NCBI GenBank assembly: GCA_000961645.1
Contig: LADM01000133.1
Coordinates: forward strand, 62,001-126,000
Source of the DNA: Gammaproteobacteria bacterium BRH_c0
Lineage (GTDB): Bacteria; Pseudomonadota; Gammaproteobacteria; Pseudomonadales; Porticoccaceae
Length of the DNA: 64,000 nucleotides
Direction of reading: 5' to 3'
This document shows positions 34,944-41,012 of this stretch, piece by piece. The position numbers and the translations under genes are program-made. How positions within the stretch are numbered: position 1 is the stretch's first letter; every line of letters starts with the position of its first letter. The notes under the pieces are model-generated. The model was given only the letters and a program-made list of their open reading frames with translations. It did no database searches and had not been told where the DNA came from.

Positions 34944-36659
34944 TTAGAGGACAGCAATACTCTCGCCTTCAGTACAGACCAGGATATGCACTTCACCGCT
35001 AGCGGGATCGAGCCGCAGGCGGTCACCGTTCCTGATGACTCTGGTCGCGCCCTGGACATGGACCATCGCCGCCAGCCCCAGCTCCCGGGCCACGACGGAG
35101 GTGTGGGTAAGCAGGCCGCCGGTTTCGACAATGACCGCAGCGGCGAGGGTGAAATACGGGGTCCAGCCCGCATCGATATGGGAGGCAACCAGAATTTCCC
35201 CAGCCTTGAAAATATCCAGTTCGTCGCTGCTGTTCACAACCCGGGCAACACCTTCTACGGCACTGCCGCTGACGCCCAGTCCGTGCAATACCCTAACCTC
35301 AGCGTTCTTTTCCGGCGAGCTAAAGGCCACAGGTTCGTGGCCACAAATCAGCTCGTCCGCTTCGCCGCGGGCCTCCAGTGTCTCTACCTCGGTGCGCCGC
35401 AGTGCTGCCTCCTTGCGCAGGTCGGTGCTGATATCCCCAGTCAGGGCGCTGCGGACCTCTTCAAGACTCAGAAAATACAGTTCACCCACTTCGTCGATAC
35501 GATCTGCATGGAGCAGCCGCCGGGCGATTTCGCGGAACAGCTGGCGCAGCATATCGACACGAACAACCAGGCAGGCATTGGCCCGTTGTCGGGCGCGGGC
35601 GCAACGCTGGGCAAGTTTCACCAGGGTGTTGATATGGGCGCGCTTTAGGGTGCCGGCTGCGGCCATGATGGCGCTCCTGGCCGCTTCAGTCTGAGTGTGG
35701 GGATGGGTCTTGTCCTTGCCGCTTGCGAGCAGTTTCCCAACAAAGGCATCCATCACCGGGGTGGGATCTTCGGCCCAGCTGGGAGCGCTGATAAGGAACT
35801 GAGCCAGCGAGCGGTAGCCGTAGCGGTCGACCACTGCCCGCAGCGCGTCGTGGGCATTGGCGTCGATTTCATGGAGGGTTTCCCAGCGCTGGTAGGAGGA
35901 TTTGAGGGCGCGGGCCAGTGTCGGGTTGCGGCGTTTGGCGACCTGGGCAATATCGCGGATTTTTTGCACCGGCGCCGCGCTTTCCATTTCGCCCAGGTCG
36001 CTGAGGAGGGCAACCAGAGAGTGCTCCTGATTGACGCCAAGTGCGCGGCGCAGGGCAGTGATTATCACCTGTCCTGCCAGGGTGCTGCGGGTGTCCCATT
36101 CGCAGGCTTTGATCAGCTCGTCCTGCCAGGGGACGATCAGTGCGTCCAGCTCGCTGTTGGTCCTGCTTGCCAGGACAAGGTTGTGACGCAGCGCCAGGTG
36201 TTTTTCGAAGCGCTTTTTGGCACCGAGGATGGCGTTGGTCAGGCCAGCGTAAAAGCGCAGTTTGTGGCGTTTTGCGGCTGATTTTTCCGCTTTACTGATC
36301 TCGGGCCGGGCAATACGAACCTCGATGCGCTGACCGAACTGTTCCTGCTCAACATCGCTGGCGTCGGCGCCAGGCAGCATATCTGCCATCCACATCGCCC
36401 AGGAGAGGTTGGCGTAGAGACGCCCCTGATGGACGCGGTTGCCGAGCAGGGCCGGTGGGTCGATGCTGGTAACCCCCAGGTCGCGCAACGGGCAGCGCAT
36501 ACCCTGTTCGAAGGGCATTGCGACCACTGTCAGGTCGAGGGGTTTGATGACGCCGGGAAAGCTTTCGCGGCTGCTGGCCCTGGCAGCGTGGGGCAGGCGC
36601 GGATCATATTCGCTGTTGAACAGGTCGAGAGGGGGGATCAGCTGTGAAGATGAATACAT
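34944..36659 (-). CDS. PEP-utilising-enzyme mobile (phospho-His) domain protein
   Basis: 571 residues. The C-terminal domain (about 450-560) is the swivelling phosphohistidine domain of PEP synthase and PPDK: ILVASHIDAGWTPYFTLAAA, then GGLLTHTSVVARELG with the acceptor His519. The ATP-grasp nucleotide domain and the PEP-binding barrel of full-length enzymes are absent; the N-terminal 400 residues are helical and specific. Phenylphosphate synthase subunit 1 (a 70-kDa His-domain protein) and rifampicin phosphotransferase show comparable partial architecture. A partner kinase domain is not found in the window. Just upstream of the lipocalin-like and Rieske genes on the same strand (116 bp). Confidence 0.72.
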   Translation of the reverse strand: MYSSSQLIPPLDLFNSEYDPRLPHAARASSRESFPGVIKPLDLTVVAMPFEQGMRCPLRDLGVTSIDPPALLGNRVHQGRLYANLSWAMWMADMLPGADASDVEQEQFGQRIEVRIARPEISKAEKSAAKRHKLRFYAGLTNAILGAKKRFEKHLALRHNLVLASRTNSELDALIVPWQDELIKACEWDTRSTLAGQVIITALRRALGVNQEHSLVALLSDLGEMESAAPVQKIRDIAQVAKRRNPTLARALKSSYQRWETLHEIDANAHDALRAVVDRYGYRSLAQFLISAPSWAEDPTPVMDAFVGKLLASGKDKTHPHTQTEAARSAIMAAAGTLKRAHINTLVKLAQRCARARQRANACLVVRVDMLRQLFREIARRLLHADRIDEVGELYFLSLEEVRSALTGDISTDLRKEAALRRTEVETLEARGEADELICGHEPVAFSSPEKNAEVRVLHGLGVSGSAVEGVARVVNSSDELDIFKAGEILVASHIDAGWTPYFTLAAAVIVETGGLLTHTSVVARELGLAAMVHVQGATRVIRNGDRLRLDPASGEVHILVCTEGESIAVL

Positions 36660-37640
36660 GGTCTATTGTCTCCATGCAACATTGGGATCGCACTGCCCTG
36701 GCAGAGAGGTAATCGAGAACCCGAAAAAAAAGCTGCGGCGTCCTTGCCGCAATAAGTTGCCTCGGGGGAGAACCTGGTAAATTCCGATTGAAAAATAGCC
36801 TTTAATCCGGTGCCGTATGGCTGGCGTTGCAGGTAACGCTGCTGCAGAGCAGCGTTATTCAGGCTTCCACTCCTGGATTCAAGCCGCTCAACAATGCAGG
36901 CGCTTTTGTCAGAAGGTAATGACAGACTGTGGCGAGTAGATGTCAGCGATCGATCGGCTGTGAACTGATGCATACAGGGTTTTACTGAGTCGCAGCAGGA
37001 GTGAGCAGCGGCAGGGCAAGAAAGAAGGCCCTTGATGCGGGCCTGCTGCAGTAGGGTAAAATCTTCCATTTATCAACCCTGATAGGTGTTGCATTGTTAT
37101 TGGTTCTGTTGTTATTGCTCTGCTTTTTCAAGAGTAGGACAGGTCGACGGCTTTTTTTATTTTTATCCCTAACCGTAACCCCCTGAGGCCACACTTTACG
37201 GCTTTCACTTTTTAAATCAACCGTATTAACCAGCCGCAAAATTCCAAAAACCGCGCAAAATTCCAAATGATTCGATGTGGTTGCTGACAGTCACGGACTT
37301 GTTATTGCCAACGGATTGGTCGGAGCCTGCACCTGCTGGTAGCAATGGGCTATTATCCCTCCGCGATCAGGCCTGTTGGCCAGCAGAGCTGCGGCAACTG
37401 GCATCAGCCACAAAATGGCCTGCGAAGGCAGCGCATCAGCCAGGCTGCACTGAGAAGGGTTTTATAAGCCACTGATTTAATTTGAGTATGTGATGGTGAG
37501 CAGGTATGCTCAGGCAGTCCGGTTGATCTGGACGAAATATATTTTTATGGACATTTGCGCGCTATATCCCGTGCTATACCATTTTATTACCGCTGACAGT
37601 CATTGTTGCCAACCGGTTGGGCCAAGCAGTTGATCTCTTC
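36660..37640. other. About 1 kb non-coding region upstream of repA-like gene, candidate ancestral origin/control region
   Basis: No supported gene. Contains two GCAAAATTCCAAA copies 19 bp apart (37236-37248, 37255-37267) and a longer near-repeat: CTGACAGTCA with TTGTTATTGCCAACGGATTG near 37283-37320, and again CTGACAGTCA with TTGTTGCCAACCGGTTGG near 37591-37620. Plasmids with RepA of this family use direct repeats near the gene for replication and autoregulation. No DnaA box matching TTATNCACA was found. Role inferred. Confidence 0.45.
37236..37267. repeat. Pair of 13-bp direct repeats upstream of the repA-like gene (iteron-like)
   Basis: GCAAAATTCCAAA occurs at 37236-37248 and 37255-37267, with identical starts 19 bp apart. 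Only two copies are present, which is few for a functional iteron set. Confidence 0.55.
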
Positions 37641-38531
37641 ATGATGAAAAAGCATTCCACATCCGGCTCACACTTCTCCGTTCAGGAGCAAACCCCCGAA
37701 GATATATTCAACGCCTTGTTTGCTGCGGACCCGGTGCTGCGGGGTTTGCCGCGCATCGTTGCCTACCTGATCAGCCTGCCGCACCGGGACCTGCGCCCAG
37801 GCGAGATCTGGATCAAGGACTTTGGTGATTTCTCCTTTGTGATTGAACCCATGCACTTCCTGTTACAGGGCCAGCGGCAGGGGGAGCTGTACGGTGTGCC
37901 TTTTGGGCCCCGTGCGCGCCTGCTGTTTGCCTATTTTTTTATGGAGTGCATAGACAATCCGGGCCTGGAGGTTGATCGCGGCGGTATCTCCGTCAGTCGC
38001 TGGTTTGAGAACATGGGGCTGTCTATTGGGGGTAAGTCCTATGCCGCCCTGCGCGAGCAGGAGTCGCGGGTGTCAGCCTGTCGCTTTATGAGCACCTTTC
38101 GCGCCCAGGGGTATGAAGGGGCGCTGTGGGATTGCCTGTATATCAGTGGCATGCGCGGGGTAAACAGCAAGGCGCGGGGGCCGACCCACCACCAGCGCAA
38201 TATGGTGAGGCTGAGTGCATCACTGTTCAGTGAGGTGGCCCAACACCCCACCCGCATTCCTATTGAGGCCCTGTCGCAACTCTCCAACCAGTCGCTCGGG
38301 CTGGATATCTACTTCTGGCTCGCCTATCGCCTGCCGCTGATGACTGAGGATGCTTTTCTGTCCTGGGACGACCTGTTCCGCTGTTTCGGAACCTCCTACA
38401 AGCATATCCGCCATTTTGAACCGCGCTTTGTGGAAAAGCTCGAGGTGGTCCTCAAGGTCTACAGTCAGGCCCGGGTGATCGTGGAGGAGGGTGGCATCAG
38501 GCTCTCTCCGTCGTCGCCACCCGGACTTTAA
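37641..38531 (+). CDS. Plasmid RepA-like replication initiator (PF04796 type) on a chromosomal segment
   Basis: 296 residues from ATG 37641 (the second Met at 37644 is equally possible). Matches the plasmid-encoded RepA C-terminal family: GVPFGPRARLLFAYFFMECI, WFENMGLSIGG with the following basic helix, then IPIEALSQLSNQSLGLDIYF, WLAYRL, LSWDDLFRCFG, and KLEVVLKVYSQARVIVEEGG. Complete and without frameshift. Neighbours are a catabolic cluster and dcd, with no partition or mobilisation genes, so it is probably the relic of an integrated plasmid or a repurposed initiator. Family recognition is good; activity unknown. Confidence 0.78.
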   Translation: MMKKHSTSGSHFSVQEQTPEDIFNALFAADPVLRGLPRIVAYLISLPHRDLRPGEIWIKDFGDFSFVIEPMHFLLQGQRQGELYGVPFGPRARLLFAYFFMECIDNPGLEVDRGGISVSRWFENMGLSIGGKSYAALREQESRVSACRFMSTFRAQGYEGALWDCLYISGMRGVNSKARGPTHHQRNMVRLSASLFSEVAQHPTRIPIEALSQLSNQSLGLDIYFWLAYRLPLMTEDAFLSWDDLFRCFGTSYKHIRHFEPRFVEKLEVVLKVYSQARVIVEEGGIRLSPSSPPGL

Positions 38532-38643: not shown

Positions 38644-39216
38644 ATGAGCATCAAATCCGACAAGTGGATCTGCCGTATGGCCGCCGAGCATGGAATGATC
38701 GAGCCCTTTGAGGGCAGGCAGGTGCGCCAGCCCGACCCCAACGGCCCCCGGGTCATTTCCTACGGTGTGTCGAGCTACGGCTACGATGTTCGCTGTTCTG
38801 ACGAATTCAAGATTTTCACCAATATCCACTCCAAAACTGTCGATCCCAAAAACTTTGATACCGACGCCTTTGTCGATGTTAAAGGCGACTACTGCATTAT
38901 CCCCCCCAACTCCTTTGCCCTGGCCCGCACGGTGGAATATTTCCGCATTCCCCGCAGTGTGCTGACCATCTGCCTGGGCAAGTCCACCTATGCCCGCTGC
39001 GGCATTATCGTCAATGTCACGCCGTTGGAGCCGGAATGGGAAGGGCATGTGACGCTGGAGTTTTCCAACACCACCAGCCTGCCCGCCAAAATCTACGCCA
39101 ACGAGGGTGTGGCGCAGATGCTGTTCTTTGAATCTGATGAAGTGTGCGAAGTGTCCTACAAGGATCGCGGCGGCAAGTACCAGGGCCAGACTGGCGTGAC
39201 TCTGCCCAAAGCCTGA
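38644..39216 (+). CDS. dcd: dCTP deaminase
   Basis: 190 residues, about the family length. Converts dCTP to dUTP for dTMP synthesis in the cytosol; homotrimer. Hallmarks: [27 protein letters not shown], the catalytic segment [23 protein letters not shown] with the Glu of [14 protein letters not shown], and the C-terminal lid ending [12 protein letters not shown]. Followed by a good bidirectional terminator. A housekeeping gene, marking the segment as chromosomal. Confidence 0.97.
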
Positions 39217-39362: not shown

Positions 39363-41012
39363 TCAGGAAGCCGTACACTCCCAGTTGGCAGCATCGTATA
39401 CCGCTTTCGGGTCATCGGCCTTGCTGTTGTCAAAGCGCGCTACCTGGGGGTGCGGGCAAAGGACAAAGTCGCGGGATTCGCCGGTGGGCGGCGGAATCAT
39501 CACGCCTGATACCTGGCCGGTTGCCGGGTCGGCAAACATCAGCTTGGCGCGATCAGCCCCGCGATGGGTGACGATGGTGCCGGGCTTGTTGCCGTTTTCA
39601 ACCCAGTCGATCATGGCGTTGAGGAACTGGTCGGGTGCATCCTGTGGACCGGTGCCGCCGCCACAGTGAGCCATGCCGGGTACCCGGTAGAAGGTGGCAA
39701 ATTCCTCGAGTTTATCCACGCCGCCGACCTTTTTCGCTGCATGGTTGTAGTAGGTTTCCAGCTCGGTATCGATGCAGCAGGGATCGCTGACACCGTTCCA
39801 CATCAGCACCTTGCCGCCGCTTTTTTGCAGGCCGGTCAGATCGGAGGTGTAGGGCACGCCAAAACCGATTTCAACGGAGCGGCGCTTCCAGTTTTTGATC
39901 ATCTCCGGGTCACTGAAGTCGAGATCTTCAAGAGCGTTGAAATCAGCGCCAAAGAGCACTTTCGACATGGAGCTGCCGATCACATAGCCAGCGGAGGATT
40001 TGGCCATGTTCTCCATGCTCGCTTCATCGGACCAGGGTGGTGGTACATGGCCGAGGAAGCCGGACCAGACGCTGATGTTGGAGATGGGGTAGCCGGGCTT
40101 GAGGGGCTTGCCATCGGGACCGATGGGGCCGGCCAGCACCGCTTTCACACTCTTCAGTTCGGGTTCGGTAAGACACTCTGCACCATCGCCGTCAGCACAT
40201 TTGAGCGAATCAAAATCGAACTTGCAGGCGAGGTGATCCTGAATGATGTCGTCCTTGGCACCATCAATCTCGTCACAGGCGGCGGTGACTTTCTGGTCGA
40301 GCATGGCGAGCTTGGCAGGTGACAGCCAGGCGCCGGGCTCGCGGTTCATCTGCTGGGCGTTGTAGACAAAGGCCGCCATGGTGAAGTTGCTGCGTCCGCC
40401 CGGTGCGCCGAGCAGTACGCCATCAAAGTCTTCCGGGTGACGGGTAATGGATTCGGTTGCCATGCGTCCGCCGCCGGAGCAGCCCGACATATAGCGGTAG
40501 AGGGTGTCGCTCTCGTAATAGGACTTGGTCATGGCCTGGGTGGCCACCGCCGTCACGTGCATGGCGCGATGGATATGATCCTCCGCTTTGGCGGGATCTG
40601 TGAGAAATCCCCAGTCGAGCATATGGCCCTGGCGTCCGGTATCGGTGCCTGCCACGGCAAAGCCACTGTGCAGGGGGTTGCCGCCGGGAACCTGCGAATC
40701 GCTGGGCACATAGCCCGCCGAGCCGCCCATGCCGATAAAATAGTAGCGCTTGTTCCAGTTTTCGTCTGGCAGCTGCAGGCGGAAATTCACCTGGTTGGGG
40801 CCGGGGTCGGTGGTGATGATATGGCCATCAATGCGGCAGTGGGGTACTGGCGCCGGAGTAGGGGCCGCGCTGTCGATCACTGTGCCTTGCGGGGCAAGCG
40901 CCTGAATGCTGTCGACGCTGCATTCGGCATTGGCCAGTGCCGTGGTCGAGGACAGGGCAAGGGTGGTAAATACCCCGCTTGCCAGCAGTCCCAAAGTTGA
41001 TGTCGGTTTCAT
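39363..41012 (-). CDS. Tannase/feruloyl esterase family hydrolase, exported (paralogue 4)
   Basis: 549 residues; the start has GAGG about eight bases upstream. Signal peptide to about LANAE (28-30). Complete CS-D-HC set: Cys178-Ser179 in SGCSGGGRMA, Asp in WNGVSDPCC, and His-Cys in GMAHCGGG. The N-terminal half reads IDGHIITTDPGPNQVNFRLQ like paralogues 1, 5 and 6. It is the last of three tandem leftward copies, with a hairpin between it and paralogue 5. Probably periplasmic. Confidence 0.94.
   Translation of the reverse strand: MKPTSTLGLLASGVFTTLALSSTTALANAECSVDSIQALAPQGTVIDSAAPTPAPVPHCRIDGHIITTDPGPNQVNFRLQLPDENWNKRYYFIGMGGSAGYVPSDSQVPGGNPLHSGFAVAGTDTGRQGHMLDWGFLTDPAKAEDHIHRAMHVTAVATQAMTKSYYESDTLYRYMSGCSGGGRMATESITRHPEDFDGVLLGAPGGRSNFTMAAFVYNAQQMNREPGAWLSPAKLAMLDQKVTAACDEIDGAKDDIIQDHLACKFDFDSLKCADGDGAECLTEPELKSVKAVLAGPIGPDGKPLKPGYPISNISVWSGFLGHVPPPWSDEASMENMAKSSAGYVIGSSMSKVLFGADFNALEDLDFSDPEMIKNWKRRSVEIGFGVPYTSDLTGLQKSGGKVLMWNGVSDPCCIDTELETYYNHAAKKVGGVDKLEEFATFYRVPGMAHCGGGTGPQDAPDQFLNAMIDWVENGNKPGTIVTHRGADRAKLMFADPATGQVSGVMIPPPTGESRDFVLCPHPQVARFDNSKADDPKAVYDAANWECTAS

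Follow-up and report, generated by a model that had tools for sequence, protein, structure and literature searches.

Plasmid replicons lying within chromosomes are usually seen either as a mobile island or as a broken relic. The locus considered here, a plasmid-type initiator gene (repA) standing alone with iteron-like sites before the housekeeping gene dcd in the gammaproteobacterium BRH_c0, raises the question of what such a gene is doing there: with the spacing of its sites kept in a sister species, a host role (e.g., plasmid exclusion) and a hidden origin become testable against each other. The window, i.e., the whole 64,000-nucleotide stretch of DNA that was analyzed, comprises bases 62,001–126,000 of a 195,808-base contig (C51) of the BRH_c0 genome (G000), which is in 140 contigs; its features are collected in Table 1. 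The main comparisons are with a second genome examined from its genus (G001) and with contig JAQGNY010000050.1 (G140), found by a genome scan; all three are fragmented assemblies. The last contig (L022) is titled Verrucomicrobiaceae, yet G140 is placed in the order of the window genome, and the title looks wrong.

Table 1. Features of the repA locus; positions are those of the 64,000-nucleotide window.
Feature	Position	Strand	Remarks
Gene-remnant frame (first ~48 codons)	36638..37069	-	203 aa, intact in G001; marks decayed flank
CACTTTAC box	37192..37199	+	34–35 bp before iteron 1 at all three related loci
Iteron 1 of pair (putative)	37235..37248	-	CGCAAAATTCCAAA on + strand; tied first by plasmid-trained motif on 196-kb contig
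Iteron 2 of pair (putative)	37254..37267	-	19 bp from iteron 1; tied with iteron 1 by plasmid-trained motif
Inverted iteron-like site ATGGACATTTGCGC	37547..37560	+	Motif rank 15 on contig; putative RepA operator
repA, plasmid-type replication initiator (RepA_C, PF04796)	37617..38531	+	Start TTG 37617 or ATG 37641; predicted fold RctB/RepE/pi-like
dcd, dCTP deaminase	38644..39216	+	PF22769; sole genome copy; relocated neighbour, probably not part of replicon

By Pfam, C51 codes for glutamyl-tRNA synthetase (gltX), sdhA, sucA, Hsp90 (htpG), chorismate synthase (aroC), gyrA, the S1 ribosomal protein (rpsA) and an ihf-type gene, and it also carries a tRNA-Ala. The gene dnaA lies on another contig (C107), and the GC skew of C51 is positive in 36 of its 40 windows of 5 kb, showing no turn at the repA gene. 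Thus, C51 is main chromosome and repA marks no regular origin on it; the chromosomal context assumed in the original prediction, which had left chromosome, chromid or plasmid to be checked, is borne out by the core genes and the tRNA-Ala, and a main chromosomal origin at repA was rejected on the skew and the location of dnaA.

The repA frame is open throughout, yielding 304 or 296 aa according to the start codon, and its product matches RepA_C with 38 bits against a cut-off of 26, over positions 41–180 of the 181-position profile; both the intact frame and the family had been called correctly from the outset. It is the sole PF04796 match in the BRH_c0 genome, and no NCBIfam family matched it. 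A sequence search of the PDB returned a single match, multicystatin (E 0.038), which we took as chance, and a first structural model from two sequences was discarded (pLDDT 42.9). With the model predicted from 13 sequences (pLDDT 81.7, pTM 0.83), Foldseek found RctB domains 2–3 as the best match (E 1e-7), followed by RepE54 (E 1e-3 to 2e-2), and VIA-align gave Z scores of 14.8 for RctB, ~10 for RepE54 and 9.9 for pi bound to iteron DNA, the first rows other than initiators reaching only 4.8. RctB, RepE54 and pi head both lists, and RepA is accordingly modeled as an initiator fold with two winged-helix domains.

The phyletic pattern of this RepA is narrow. The G001 protein is 63% identical over 279 aa and that of G140 57% identical. 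Searched with a profile built from these three RepAs (E 1e-8), the 112 genomes of the family gave matches in G000 and G001 only, the other 110 being without one. An even draw of 390 genomes from the order gave eight matches, with only G000 and G140 above 500 bits and the rest at 39–88 bits; at E 1e-20, the class yielded five matches in 369 genomes, the four besides G000 scoring 85–98 bits. In the family of G140, one of two genomes has this RepA. Plasmid relatives are more remote: 799 of 72,556 plasmid records have a tblastn match to RepA, all below 60% identity, and identities among the matches listed (30 of the 799) span 30.6–36.7%. A tree of 22 RepA_C proteins unites those of G000, G001 and G140 in one clade (100/100), which groups with alphaproteobacterial plasmid RepAs (97/97). 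An alignment of the chromosomal RepAs found no relative in 38 stretches of viral contigs. G001 also codes for a second, very divergent RepA_C (contig C76; L017:19624-20589), 27% identical and situated in a P450-rich cluster, with one motif site (L017:19595-19607) lying 28 bp ahead of its start and no accompanying array.

The region upstream of repA provides the second line of evidence. The original prediction had pointed to two 13-bp direct repeats 19 bp apart; the pair and its start-to-start spacing stand, though the repeat is in fact a 14-bp exact one (CGCAAAATTCCAAA). An exact repeat of at least 14 bp within 40 bp arose in none of 2000 dinucleotide shuffles of 37070–37640. G001 has such a pair too, spaced by 20 bp and with a degenerate second copy. 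The inverted site, 57 bp (TTG) or 81 bp (ATG) upstream of the repA start, is kept in G001 as CTGGACATTTGCGCG, and inverted promoter-side copies also occur in the Rhodovastum and Azospirillum plasmids. Over 1.09 Mb of loci, many of them overlapping, the arrangement of a CACTTTAC box followed after 34/35 bp by an iteron was found upstream of the G000, G001 and G140 repA genes only, the pattern having been framed after the alignment had been seen. By itself, the 12-mer CGCAAAAYTCCA is not rare, being present in 14 of 24 genomes at 0–3 copies per genome; its two occurrences in G000 are both the window iterons, the single copy in G001 is upstream of repA, and so is one of the three copies in G140.

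The longer near-duplicate that had also been reported (GCTGACAGTCA ... GCCAAC ... TTGG) is present at ~37283 and ~37593, but with differing inner spacing; we give it little weight because 81 of 2000 shuffles contain an exact repeat of at least 11 bp somewhere and neither of the two related repA genes has TGACAGTCA upstream. On these grounds, it was also rejected as an operator. A check for DnaA boxes and AT content found one 1-mismatch box and 53% AT upstream of the window repA, and the same rule found no box in three of four plasmid regions. A promoter scan detected no sigma-70-like site before repA and one, against 1.3 expected, on the dcd side; an Rfam search of the 64-kb window gave no match.

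We also listed repeats upstream of plasmid repA genes without supervision. Four of six plasmid relatives contain iterons of approximately the form TGGACTCTTG or TGGAGTCTTG, the Geminicoccaceae relative having different repeats; the window repeat reads TTTGGAATTTTGCG on the opposite strand. A 13-column motif was then built from 14 plasmid sites, with Rhodovastum, Roseomonas and Azospirillum at equal weight and six of 20 sites left out as duplicates or near-duplicates. Although it was drawn after the window repeats had been seen, this motif places them at ranks 1 and 2 (tied) among the 391,592 positions of C51. On the G001 contig (30,592 positions), the sites upstream of repA rank 1, 2 and 4, and at the G140 locus (40,294 positions) the rank is 1. 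None of 1000 column-permuted motifs equalled this at the three loci together; singly, 4 of the 1000 reached top rank on C51, 77 in G001 and 44 in G140. The result depends on the training set: the Rhodovastum sites by themselves give C51 ranks 5–7 and those of Roseomonas 4–6, and with the Azospirillum iterons alone every C51 site falls outside the top 60, and only ranks 3–4 are reached in G140. Upstream of ten distant RepA_C genes (G589, being without upstream sequence, was dropped), the best score was 9.96 versus 12.6–16.4 at the chromosomal trio, and among ten IMG/VR RepA loci (L111 left out) the motif is clearly repeated upstream in L103 and L104 only. The plasmids themselves have more matches upstream of repA, 4–5 in each of three and 7 in a fourth. 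By their motif ranks, the window repeats look like iterons of the RepA family, set about two helical turns apart.

We then considered how repA came to lie beside dcd. The two are adjacent as first described, with dcd starting 112 bp after the repA stop, and repA is directly upstream of dcd in both examined genomes of the genus. Elsewhere the usual neighbour is mrp, which directly precedes dcd in 9 of 11 relatives inspected; metG is beside mrp in eight of these nine and ~2.8 kb off in G041. In G003 the order is metG–mrp–CoA-transferase–dcd, and in G010 dcd is apart from mrp. In G000, contig C33 has metG–mrp–CoA-transferase without dcd, which is found only beside repA. Hence, dcd no longer occupies its usual position in this genus, and repA is now at the junction. 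G140 keeps mrp–dcd and has its repA elsewhere, next to a gene other than dcd. An rml gene adjoins dcd in both G001 and G003, consistent with a break in the chromosome immediately before dcd; that a plasmid integrated at, or mediated, the dcd rearrangement is one reading, in which the order of events is inferred. Conserved repA–dcd synteny in many chromosomes without repeats had been put forward as the finding that would point to a domesticated role outside replication; the synteny is indeed kept within the genus, but so are the repeats. As a separate observation, the CoA-transferase-like gene and dcd of G003 lie in one 648-aa frame (L079:9656-11602), a possible fusion or frame artefact.

The other flank has fared differently. 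Between G000 and G001, repA shows dN 0.33 and dS 1.25, i.e., dN/dS ~0.26, a ratio whose reading is limited by a dS above 1 and close to saturation; the values are 0.034 and 0.83 for dcd and 0.31 and 1.28 for a 571-aa PEP-utilizer gene. RepA has been kept open while neighbouring genes decayed. In G001, the counterparts of the decayed flank, the 203-aa gene and a 561-aa PPDK_N/PEP-utilizer gene beside it, are both intact (L016:6315-8605); the latter is absent from C51. The third gene of the divergent flank, at 34944–36659, is intact in G000. The suggestion that the plasmid brought in the catabolic cluster did not gain firm ground, being backed circumstantially by three genes near repA common to G000 and G001, one of them for a molybdopterin oxidoreductase, and by P450 or dehydrogenase neighbours at related RepA loci. 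Several similar tannase/feruloyl-esterase-like genes also occur in the window (39363–41012 and further frames): one is confirmed as PF07519, 44615–46714 is a weak second match and the others were judged by eye.

Taken together, we consider it likely that the locus represents the core of a plasmid replicon of the iteron type (RepA_C), which has been in the main chromosome since or before the ancestor of the genus and has been inherited there. This rests on the intact gene and its predicted initiator fold, on iteron-like sites that resemble those of plasmids in sequence and those of the sister loci in spacing, on the chromosomal location, on the repA–dcd adjacency kept in two species and on the absence of dcd from its usual position. 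The captured module is best read as an initiator, paired iterons and a promoter-side operator, probably what remains at the core of a plasmid that integrated long ago. Of the two origins initially proposed, the relic of an integrated plasmid gains support from the position of the RepA clade among alphaproteobacterial plasmid RepAs and from the retained iteron-like sites; a domesticated initiator is compatible with an intact repA at the same place in both genomes of the genus, its role being putative. Autorepression by Rep is a feature of iteron plasmid systems. By analogy, RepA should bind both the pair and the promoter-side site: at the paired iterons (37235–37267), it would occupy what may be the remains of oriV, and at the inverted site (37547) it would repress its own promoter. 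Passages of PMC4980987 describe Rep monomers binding the iterons of such plasmids, with Rep dimers occurring in solution and binding DNA. The integration or rearrangement would have had its breakpoint just before dcd. The reduced number of iterons (two strong or weak sites, fewer than in the plasmids), together with the unbroken GC skew, suggests that the locus is not a regular second origin.

The same features bear on whether the locus might still replicate on occasion, as a chromosomal island able to excise or fire transiently in the manner of SGI1, whose rep and oriV replicate the excised island on a helper-plasmid trigger (PMC7433901, in the passages concerned). The initiator does survive, together with a pair of iterons and a site resembling an operator. 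However, integrase, relaxase, partition families and int/xis were all absent by Pfam from the 28 window proteins scanned (a subset of the window genes), the sole ParA-like protein recognized on C51 is 90 kb from repA, the skew does not turn at repA and four plasmid relatives have more origin iterons. We therefore regard a working conditional replicon as unlikely.

RepA might instead have become a host regulator, e.g., of dcd or the divergent catabolic genes, with the iterons as operators only. Its intact frame, its conservation next to dcd in the two species of the genus and its dN/dS would fit this role, as would the divergent RepA_C of G001, which with one site at -28 and no array looks operator-only. 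Against it, the dcd promoter is without a site, the repA–dcd gap falling outside the top 40 motif matches; the repA neighbour in G140 is not dcd; and paired, spaced iterons ~380 bp upstream are unneeded for simple autoregulation. This we hold to be quite unlikely. A resident incompatibility locus, at which RepA on iterons of the chromosome would titrate or handcuff plasmids of its own replicon family as they enter, appears highly unlikely; if true, the captured module would protect the cell against its former kind, and the divergent RepA_C of G001 with its single operator-like site would be a related case. Finally, that the contig is a chromid, megaplasmid or assembly chimera with repA as its ordinary initiator, considered because dcd is off its usual place and close plasmid RepAs (those of Azospirillum) are on replicons of 160–540 kb, and compatible with a genome in 140 contigs, is barely credible, and the chromid is rejected, as gyrA, rpsA, sucA and the other core genes (sdhA, gltX, aroC, htpG, tRNA-Ala) share the contig, which is no replicon separate from the main chromosome, and the repA–dcd pair recurs in an independent genome.

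The captured replicon core can be placed against known systems at three levels. First, its RepA shares the predicted two-winged-helix fold with RctB of Vibrio chromosome 2, RepE of plasmid F and pi of R6K, but with 7–10% sequence identity in the structure alignments and membership of another Pfam family; further, RctB drives a secondary chromosome, whereas the window RepA sits inside the main one. Second, SGI1 Rep (S003) is likewise an initiator of the RepA_C family that resides in a chromosome; its iteron origin has been demonstrated, according to the relevant passages of PMC7433901, and the window origin is predicted from sequence. Unlike the window locus, SGI1 is a mobilizable island with int/xis, of which the 28 window proteins scanned gave no example, its oriV is downstream of rep, and its four 17-bp iterons are of unrelated sequence (RKGGGGGHRATTATGCG). 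Chromosomal RepA_C replicons are thus already known, and the locus described here is a variant of them, since it is inherited and stands alone, the neighbours scanned including neither a recombinase nor a partition gene. Among the literature matches listed, titles and abstract openings describe no chromosomal repA beside dcd, and PMC10645730 concerns Rep_3 rather than RepA_C. The locus furnishes a dated case, in which the move of a housekeeping gene, dcd, shares its junction with a replicon gene. Third, the closest likeness is to the plasmids of Azospirillum, Roseomonas and Rhodovastum, whose RepA proteins (PF04796) are 32–37% identical to that of the window and whose iterons, TGGA[CG]T[CT]TTG.., match the other strand of the window repeats, with an inverted copy near repA in the Rhodovastum and Azospirillum B510 plasmids as well. 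Those replicons are extrachromosomal and have 4–7 motif matches, whereas the window locus is chromosomal and has two plus one inverted, with the site set as a whole flipped in orientation.
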